Below, one piece after another: positions 11,495 through 19,899 of a DNA stretch of 46,070 bases. The notes under the pieces are model-generated. The model was not told the origin of the DNA, did no database searches, and saw only the letters and a list, made by a program, of their open reading frames with translations. Location of the stretch: assembly GCA_039801725.1 (NCBI GenBank), contig JBDRVE010000011.1, positions 1 to 46,070 on the forward strand, given 5' to 3'. Made by a program: the position numbers and the translations under genes. The DNA is from a candidate division WOR-3 bacterium (GTDB taxonomy: Bacteria; Hydrothermota; Tepidihabitantia; Tepidihabitantales; DTDR01). Numbering within the stretch: the stretch's first letter is position 1; every line of letters starts with the position of its first letter.

Positions 11495-11589
11495 TGGCGG
11501 AGGTGGGTAGGAATCGAACCTACCACAAGCCTTTTGGGCTTGCGAGCGGGTTTGAAGCCCGTCAGGCACACCAGCACCCAGCCACCTCC
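11495..11589 (-). tRNA. selC: tRNA-Sec (anticodon UCA)
   Basis: An eight-base-pair acceptor stem (GGAGGTGG/CCACCTCC), a long variable arm (GCAAGCC...GGCTTG) and the loop CTTCAAA with anticodon TCA (complement of 11553-11555) identify the selenocysteine tRNA. The T arm GTAGGTTCGATTCCTAC and discriminator G73 match bacterial selC. CCA is encoded (11497-11495), unlike the other two tRNAs here. The top base pair of the anticodon stem appears to be an A-C mismatch. selB is in this window at 28778; selA and selD are not. Confidence 0.96.
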
Positions 11590-18009: not shown

Positions 18010-18357
18010 ATGAGAAACTATGAAGAAAGGATTAAAAGGTATAAAAAGAAACTGGATATTTATTTTCCTAACTCTCTAATAGAAAAGATGGCAGAGAATT
18101 ATAAAAGAGAGGCAAAAATATTGGCTGAGATTGATGGTCTCGTTAGTAAGATCCTTAATGATTACCAAATTCCTACCGAATATATCTCTTACTATTCTTT
18201 TGCCCGGGAATTATATGGGTTAAAAAGGAGATACATAAGTAAGCGGTTAGAAAAAGAAACGGGGGTATGTTTTCATAAGTGGTTAATGCGCGGATTAGAG
18301 AAGAAGATAATGTTAAAGATAAAGAAAGAGATGGACAGGTTGCCGTTGGGGGAATAG
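18010..18357 (+). CDS. small basic protein of unknown function
   Basis: A 115-residue protein behind a strong AAAAAGGAGG. It is predicted all-helical, rich in Lys, Arg and Glu, and ends in EKKIMLKIKKEMDRLPLGE. The segment ISYYSFARELYGLKRRYISKRLEKETG could be a helix-turn-helix or an RNA-binding helix bundle, but I cannot assign a family. It stands alone as a single plus-strand gene between two minus-strand units. I see no convincing promoter in the 17930-18000 region. A 20-base motif (GTATAGGAGATAGTACAAGG) starts at the third base of its stop codon and recurs twice more in intergenic DNA. Confidence 0.65.
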   Translation: MRNYEERIKRYKKKLDIYFPNSLIEKMAENYKREAKILAEIDGLVSKILNDYQIPTEYISYYSFARELYGLKRRYISKRLEKETGVCFHKWLMRGLEKKIMLKIKKEMDRLPLGE

Positions 18358-18407: not shown

Positions 18408-18893
18408 TTAACTTTTGATTATTTCTATTAAAAGCCCTTTTAAATACCTTAATTCTTTATTTTTCTTATTCAGTAAATTATGGATTAATTGTTGAAATTT
18501 AGAAGGAGATACTTTTGCTTCATCTGGAAAACTTTCCGGATTATCTGAAAAGCCAAAATCTGATAGTTTAATCCCTTCTTTCTTTGCTACATTATATATC
18601 CATTCTTCTAAATCTGGCGAGAGGGTAATAACTAAATTCTTATCTTTATCTTTGAACAATTTAATTCCTTCCTTTTCTTCAACCAATTCAAAACCTACTT
18701 TTAATAGCAATTTTTGTGTAGGTGAATCGGTTTGAGGGTCTTCATCTAATAATGCTAAATATTTCTTCTTTTCTTTTCCTTCTTTTATTTGGGAAAAGAA
18801 TTTACCCCTTCCTGATAAGTGTCTTATATTAATTTTTCCCCATAAAATATTAATAACCCTTCTTTGGTTATAACATTCAGCATAAAAAATCAT
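18408..18893 (-). CDS. TOPRIM-like partner of the upstream ATPase
   Basis: A 161-residue protein whose start overlaps the ATPase stop (TAATG), so the pair is translationally coupled. The first strand carries FYAECYNQRRVI with Glu6. Residues 45-53 (YLALLDEDP) provide Asp50 and Asp52. A glutamate followed about 45 residues later by a DxD is the arrangement of catalytic residues in TOPRIM nucleases, and small TOPRIM-like partners follow OLD-type ATPases in several defence modules. GRGKFF between them may be the loop after the second strand. The C terminus (SPSKFQQLIHNLLNK) is helical. Homology is too weak for certainty. Alternatives are a DUF3226- or DUF4276-like protein of other function. Confidence 0.6.
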   Translation of the reverse strand: MIFYAECYNQRRVINILWGKINIRHLSGRGKFFSQIKEGKEKKKYLALLDEDPQTDSPTQKLLLKVGFELVEEKEGIKLFKDKDKNLVITLSPDLEEWIYNVAKKEGIKLSDFGFSDNPESFPDEAKVSPSKFQQLIHNLLNKKNKELRYLKGLLIEIIKS

Positions 18894-19864
18894 TAATCTT
18901 CGCTAAATTGGAAAAATGGGTCTATTTTACCTGTCGAAATATCTTCTTTTTCTTTATCACTTAATTCCTTTAACATCGTTTGGTGTTCTTTTATATACAC
19001 ATAAAAGATTGTCAATTCTTCCTTAGGAGTTTTTTCTATAAGGGAAGATAAGAAATAGGGGTTATGTGTTGAGATGAAATACTGATTATTTTTTTTATCA
19101 AAGGCGATTGTTTCTGCCAGGATTTTTGTATAGTAAGGAAAGGAATGGGCTTCAGGTTCTTCAAATAGGATAATTGAATCCCTATTACTTTTTATCGCCA
19201 CAAAATGAAAGATTATCCGTTGAAGGGTATCGGAAAGTAATAAATAAGGAAAAAGAATTGTTTTTGGCTCCAATTTCAAAATTTTAATTTTTGCCTCTCC
19301 CTCTTCTAATACTAATTGTAATTTAAATTCATCCAAAATTAATTTTACAAAATTATAAATTTCTTGGTTAGTATTTAGTATGGCTAATAAATTTTCACCG
19401 TTTGGTGGCAAAAGAAAAGAATGCTCTTGATAGGGAAAATAAGGCAGAGTTTTAAAGCGATAAAATTTAAAAGGATTGTCTTTTGTAAAAAAAATGTGTG
19501 ACACAGAACCCGCAAAATTCGCATTATTATCAAATCTATAATCAAAAAGATTAGCACTTCCTTTTTCTATGAAATCAGCTTTAATATATATATCCCCACC
19601 TTGTTGATAAGTTTCCCATTTAAAATTACTAGCATAAACTTCAATTTTTAAAGAGGTCTCTTTATTCCAAAATAAATCAGCAATTTTTTCTAATCTTATT
19701 AACTCCTTAATATTGGCTCTATAAGAAAGCGAAAAAACTCCTAAGGCTTCTAAAATATTTGACTTTCCCGTATTTGGCTTTCCAATAAATAAATTTATTC
19801 TTTTAGCATTAAAAGATAATTCTTTAATTGATTTGAAATTCTTAATAGTAATCTTAGAAACCAT
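18893..19864 (-). CDS. OLD-like/AAA_21 ATPase
   Basis: A 323-residue ABC-type ATPase without a coiled-coil insert. The opening VSKITIKNFKSIKELSF is typical of RecF/OLD-like proteins. Walker A is GKPNTGKS (residues 28-35). A signature-like LSDTLQR and Walker B IILFEEPEAH follow, and the switch histidine is in FISTHNPYFLSSL. Unlike full OLD nucleases it lacks a fused TOPRIM domain; the next gene may supply it. Proteins of this type power several anti-phage modules. The ATG lies six bases after TATAAT, so the mRNA should be leaderless. The ATPase fold is secure; the defence role is inference. Confidence 0.82.
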   Translation of the reverse strand: MVSKITIKNFKSIKELSFNAKRINLFIGKPNTGKSNILEALGVFSLSYRANIKELIRLEKIADLFWNKETSLKIEVYASNFKWETYQQGGDIYIKADFIEKGSANLFDYRFDNNANFAGSVSHIFFTKDNPFKFYRFKTLPYFPYQEHSFLLPPNGENLLAILNTNQEIYNFVKLILDEFKLQLVLEEGEAKIKILKLEPKTILFPYLLLSDTLQRIIFHFVAIKSNRDSIILFEEPEAHSFPYYTKILAETIAFDKKNNQYFISTHNPYFLSSLIEKTPKEELTIFYVYIKEHQTMLKELSDKEKEDISTGKIDPFFQFSED

Positions 19865-19870
19865 TTTTAA

Positions 19871-19899
19871 ATTATATTAATTCAAAAAAATAAAGTCAA
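19871..19899 (-). promoter_or_regulatory. leaderless-type promoter of the ATPase/TOPRIM-like pair
   Basis: Minus strand: TTGACT (19899-19894), 17-base spacer, TATAAT (19876-19871), six bases, ATG at 19864. It separates this pair from the dprA operon just upstream. Confidence 0.85.

Follow-up and report, generated by a model that had tools for sequence, protein, structure and literature searches.

The window analysed here, a stretch of 46,070 nucleotides from contig JBDRVE010000011.1, derives from a genome of 1.63 Mb that is 97% complete, and carries on its minus strand a pair of overlapping genes. The first encodes an OLD/AriA-like ABC-type ATPase of 323 residues (18893..19864), recognized by its open reading frame, by Pfam and PADLOC models and by a motif census, and the second a small, TOPRIM-like putative nuclease of 161 residues (18408..18893), defined by its open reading frame and by an alignment of 29 family members. 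The junction reads GAT TAATG, such that the stop codon of the ATPase overlaps the ATG of the small gene (TAATG, 18891..18895, minus strand) and translational coupling is expected. Both reading frames, with their lengths and overlap, are exactly as described in an initial annotation made from the letters alone. The pair is flanked by dprA and by a convergent 115-aa gene, and its wider surroundings in the window consist of dprA, obg and coaD. The 115-aa gene (18010-18357) belongs to a diverged multi-copy family, with three to six copies in each of five genomes searched from the same order, and yields no confident match in a Pfam search. Elsewhere in the window, ARAGORN predicts a selenocysteine tRNA on the minus strand (11495-11589).

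The initial annotation also assigned the pair its own leaderless promoter, a claim that holds with one small correction. A sigma-70-like site, TTGACT-17-TATAAT (19871..19899, minus strand), matches the consensus at 11 of 12 positions and stops 6 nt short of the ATPase ATG, as would suit a leaderless mRNA. The copy of the pair in a sister genome, G001, sits at a different genomic place and yet retains identical hexamers, the 17-nt spacing and a 5-nt leader to the ATG, from which the promoter probably moves together with the module. The correction is that dprA lies on the same strand with the ATPase start only 46 nt downstream, so that read-through from the dprA operon is possible in addition to the pair's own promoter. 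Promoter-like sites at the scan threshold show no enrichment (six in the sequence vs. 8.2 in shuffles). More distant members of the class have a Shine-Dalgarno-like AAGGAGGT in place of the leaderless promoter.

The larger protein has the features of an OLD-type ABC ATPase: a Walker A motif (GKPNTGKS, residues 28-35), a signature-like SDTLQR, a Walker B motif (FEEPE) and a switch motif (THNP, with His267), together with scores above the cut-offs of Pfam models AAA_15 (4.8e-16, 59.8 bits against a cut-off of 32.1) and AAA_21 (2.8e-10, 41.2 bits against 27). The chain has no C-terminal nuclease domain, which, like the motifs, agrees with the original description. Its PADLOC matches are to ATPase-Toprim_I-B of retron I-B (1.1e-17), NsnB (4e-17), AriA (6e-16), HEC-01A (4e-15) and GajA (6e-14), as well as OLD, all of them ATPases that accompany TOPRIM or related nucleases. 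The protein also scores on the RecF and SMC_N models, and a profile search of the PDB returns RecF, OLD, GajA, PtuA and the Eco8 OLD nuclease. Nearly all of the 27 homologues in the census keep the Walker A, Walker B and switch motifs. One from Chloroflexota has ENPE for EEPE and TQD for THN, and has a near-twin, L026. In both Chloroflexota ATPases (L025 and L026), the switch His is gone, as is one of the Walker B acids, while the E and DxD of the small partner are retained; such pairs may be gated without ATP hydrolysis. The genome of the window encodes a second ATPase of the same family (L017/L088, G000:C22:25132-26088), 47% identical and lacking the small partner, and a search for a hidden remnant of the small family next to it found none. 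A 149-aa ORF lies about 150 bp upstream in the same orientation; it appears GIY-YIG-like by eye, has no Pfam match and is absent from the rest of the 61 relatives. An effector swap is a possible explanation.

By itself, the small protein matches nothing in Pfam, NCBIfam or PADLOC (none at an E-value of 1 for Pfam and PADLOC). The residues that had been singled out as a TOPRIM-like arrangement, Glu6, Asp50 and Asp52, are nevertheless invariant across the 29 aligned proteins, as is Cys7. His25 and Glu96 of the window protein are near-invariant, and in the numbering of the first row of the alignment, the invariant E-C...D-x-D pattern is accompanied by nearly invariant D9, L12, H26 and E91. AlphaFold2 models of the window protein (pLDDT 89) and of a homologue (pLDDT 93.8) are confident and share the order beta1-alpha1-beta2-alpha2-beta3-alpha3-beta4, which contains the beta-alpha-beta-alpha-beta succession expected of TOPRIM. 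In these models, the Glu ends beta1, the DxD ends beta3 and the later Glu begins the helix after the last strand, which agrees with the TOPRIM pattern of a Glu in strand 1 and a DxD in strand 3. The Glu is followed by Cys in this family, where TOPRIM domains usually have Gly.

Comparison with the broad profile points the same way. The 29-member profile scores 29.3 in hhalign against the DUF4276 alignment (best of 60 shuffled targets, 17.4), with E, H, DxD and E..W in register, and 20.4 against OLD TOPRIM (best of 60 shuffled targets, 16.1). The score is 15.3 for an alpha/beta family that is unrelated, and 28.7 for DUF4276 against OLD TOPRIM, two accepted relatives. The DUF4276 result changes little when suspect members are dropped. 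In addition, distant members of the small family match the AriB (5.5e-5) and mad4 (9.7e-5) models. A narrow profile of 11 members, on the other hand, does not rise above shuffled targets for either DUF4276 or OLD TOPRIM, although its best alignment keeps the same register. Foldseek searches of the two confident models against solved structures (PDB) and viral structures (BFVD) return no significant match, only weak Rossmann-like and other hits, the best plausible TOPRIM being GajA (TM 0.47, E 0.25, not significant), and a PDB sequence search with the small-family profile gives chance matches only. The TOPRIM fold first proposed is favoured by the broad profile and the AriB and mad4 matches and left without backing by the narrow profile and the structure search. 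A TOPRIM-like domain is likely, and we regard the assignment as moderately supported and probable.

Comparison with catalogued systems places the pair near several of them and within none. Like PARIS (AriA/AriB, class 4 OLD), it consists of two genes, an OLD-type ABC ATPase followed by a separate TOPRIM-like effector, and the ATPases score on AriA models (6e-16 for the window, 5.5e-20 for an archaeal member), as one small-family member does on AriB. Both window proteins are shorter than their PARIS counterparts, however, and the small protein matches neither AriB nor DUF4435, which rules out membership; DUF4435 was also absent from 100 relatives in which it was sought. Furthermore, the pair occurs in archaea, whereas OLD classes 3 and 4 are reported from bacteria only, in a family that also includes 11 uncharacterised clades (PMC12796447). 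HEC-01, a PADLOC candidate system composed of an ATPase (HEC-01A) and a DUF4276 protein (HEC-01B), shares gene order and logic, and DUF4276 is the best profile match of the small family, the two lining up in register at E, H-GK, DxD and E..W. DUF4276 proteins are themselves encoded behind ATPases of this type and are recognised by the HEC-01B model; a literature search on DUF4276 found no paper. Here too membership is ruled out, the window protein having no HEC-01B or DUF4276 match of its own and the kinship existing at profile level only, and the window ATPase is about 100 aa shorter, with a weak HEC-01A match. In the case of MADS, the ATPase matches the MADS3 model (4e-8) and several small-family members match mad4, but a score of 32.8 bits against an NCBIfam cut-off of 420, only two genes and no other MADS genes around them exclude it. 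GajA of Gabija and OLD classes 1 and 2 resemble the ATPase in its N-terminal half and give the small protein a weak TOPRIM profile match, but they carry ATPase and TOPRIM in a single chain that is split here. Gabija is excluded, as the ATPase has no C-terminal TOPRIM, no UvrD-like GajB is present and the neighbours are dprA and the 115-aa gene. Because the pair falls outside PARIS, Gabija, HEC-01 and MADS, we place it as a separate variant of the OLD-ABC/TOPRIM theme. Such dyads form a recognised theme. According to PMC12839542, Aravind and colleagues had already described distinct collections of them, which were subsequently reported anew as PARIS and Gabija.

Iterated searches brought the number of distinct loci carrying the small gene to 30: four in Stahlbacteria, eight in Bacteroidota, one in Acidobacteriota, two in Chloroflexota, 14 in the phylum of a Candidatus Jordarchaeia genome (Asgard-type archaea) and one in a pleolipovirus provirus. 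An ATPase gene lies directly upstream of the small gene in all 30, more than chance would allow, and the pairing is obligate. Occurrence is sparse: the small gene is present in four of 61 relatives, in seven of the 395 genomes of a Bacteroidota sample and in 14 of 227 from the archaeal phylum. Among the archaeal copies are a frameshifted small gene and a split ATPase. Vertical inheritance within the phylum is ruled out by this distribution. The three genomes of the window's own genus all differ: G000 has the intact pair beside dprA, G001 has it elsewhere, and G002, at the same site between the 115-aa gene and dprA and with both flanks homologous, has lost the ATPase and, of the small gene, retains no more than a 3' remnant (18478..18584 of the window, minus strand, 73% DNA identity). 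At the dprA site of G001 (L113, G001:C32, 130-2232, across a contig break) are genes for 143-aa SprT-like and 189-aa HNH-nuclease-like proteins, named by eye, and the interval between dprA and the 115-aa gene seems to be a site of variable cargo. In the ATPase tree, one Bacteroidota and one Acidobacteriota copy are joined with full support, indicating horizontal transfer; the rest is poorly resolved and is compatible with monophyly of the Stahlbacteria copies (p-AU 0.28). From such sequence comparisons, the pair behaves as an accessory, horizontally moved module.

The viral copy is carried as gp15-gp16 by the provirus genome of Geoglobus ahangari pleomorphic virus 1 (BK065157; described in PMC10919331), which also carries a RelE/ParE toxin gene. 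Genes for HxlR-type winged-helix regulators lie on both sides of this pair (L028, 5020-7171), an arrangement that suggests a regulated cargo cassette of the Geoglobus pleolipovirus. Scans of viral contigs found no small-family member and only partial, generic matches to the ATPase, and among PLSDB plasmids, the small protein was absent and one truncated ATPase was found.

A survey of 24 neighbourhoods found clear defence genes adjoining the pair in six: AbiEi/AbiEii, Septu-like PtuA/PtuB, a C5 and another DNA methylase, Cmr4 of a type III-B CRISPR system and a large helicase. The other 18 have no clear defence gene. The 138 neighbour proteins match 227 PADLOC models at 1e-10 (best about 1e-130), compared with 25 models (best 3e-33) for 137 proteins from random regions, a partly matched control drawn from some of the same genomes; PADLOC is redundant, which inflates the contrast in model counts. 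In most cases the pair sits by itself amid housekeeping genes, in a Cytophagales genome even between apparent sucB and lpd, and one archaeal copy is near PIN/nucleotidyltransferase genes. With six of 24 loci beside clear defence genes, a gene of the classic defence-island type is ruled out. The context survey proposed at the outset gave defence genes at a quarter of the loci and a mostly standalone module. Of the two findings named at the outset as refuting the initial reading, neither was made: a TOPRIM-like domain is likely, and the pair is not vertically inherited in the phylum and adjoins defence genes at these six loci.

What the pair does can be read in several ways. The dprA, obg and coaD surroundings, the RecF and SMC_N scores, mostly non-island settings elsewhere and the precedent of Cran1, an archaeal OLD ATPase with a role in the cell cycle and not in defence (PMC12796447), would fit a RecF/SMC-like ATPase that works with a nuclease partner in DNA repair or chromosome maintenance. 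A housekeeping function of this kind is hard to reconcile with a pair that 57 of 61 relatives lack, that occupies different sites in a single genus, that occurs as remnants and frameshifted copies, and that has spread across phyla and is carried by a virus; we consider it quite improbable. The same decay, as in the G002 remnant once selection ends, is what one would expect of a mobile, toxin-antitoxin-like addiction module, in which the ATPase restrains a small protein that cuts nucleic acid, the pair stabilises a carrier element or prophage, and any antiviral effect is a by-product. Overlapping genes, obligate pairing, the RelE/ParE toxin gene in the provirus and the PIN/nucleotidyltransferase genes near the archaeal copy speak for it as well. 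Against it stand the gene order, with the ATPase first, the absence of the pair from PLSDB plasmids, and the close analogues PARIS, HEC-01 and MADS, which are known or candidate defence modules; we hold this alternative to be unlikely.

A different doubt concerns the small protein, which might be a Rossmann-like binding or regulatory partner other than TOPRIM, in a module that senses without cutting. The weak Rossmann and other matches of the fold search, E-C in place of E-G and the non-significant narrow profile would all be explained, but an E and DxD invariant at strand ends in 29 proteins, and a broad profile in register with DUF4276 and OLD TOPRIM and above all controls, speak against such a partner and make it fairly unlikely. 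The likely explanation, in our judgement, is a mobile conflict module of the split OLD-ABC/TOPRIM type, compact and made up of two genes, that works much as PARIS does, with an ATPase that senses and a TOPRIM that cuts. This preserves the original notion of a compact OLD-type ATPase with a TOPRIM-like partner, now joined by family-wide invariance of the acidic residues and by profile links to DUF4276/HEC-01B, AriB and mad4. From this kinship, the patchy and horizontal spread, the decay, the virus-borne copy and the partial defence-gene neighbourhoods, we infer a role in antiviral defence.

The mechanism can be sketched by analogy. One of the hallmarks of PARIS is its triggering by anti-restriction proteins. 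In PARIS, a hexamer of the ABC ATPase AriA holds the TOPRIM protein AriB inactive until phage triggers free it, whereupon AriB forms dimers and cleaves tRNA (PMC12409363); in GajA, a TOPRIM domain that cuts DNA is under the control of the ATPase domain (PMC12796447). By the same logic, the AriA/HEC-01A-like ATPase most likely oligomerises, binds ATP and serves as both sensor and restraint, and the 161-residue protein would be the effector, with Glu6, Asp50 and Asp52 binding metal. Triggering of the ATPase during infection would lead the effector to cut nucleic acid, either tRNA, the substrate in PARIS, or DNA, the substrate in OLD and Gabija, with the result that infected cells stop growing or that invading DNA is cut. 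Catalysis by the TOPRIM, gating by the ATPase, trigger, substrate and antiviral role are all put forward here on this analogy.

The pair has the appearance of a relative of the PARIS/OLD anti-virus systems that is not yet catalogued, and the dyad may already figure in the ABC ATPase survey of Krishnan et al. 2020. More speculatively, and with less than even confidence, it may represent a class of split OLD systems that has not been named before, marked by a TOPRIM-like subfamily of its own (E-C...D / DEDP / LE-W), shared between bacteria and archaea, used by a pleolipovirus as a weapon against competitors, and the first PARIS-like module active in archaea. The effector family is represented by no Pfam, NCBIfam or PADLOC model, and current defence annotation consequently misses it in both domains. 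At about 480 residues together, the two proteins may rank among the smallest ATPase and TOPRIM modules, a size that suits structural studies of nuclease gating by such ATPases, and the family extends split OLD modules to archaea and to an archaeal virus.
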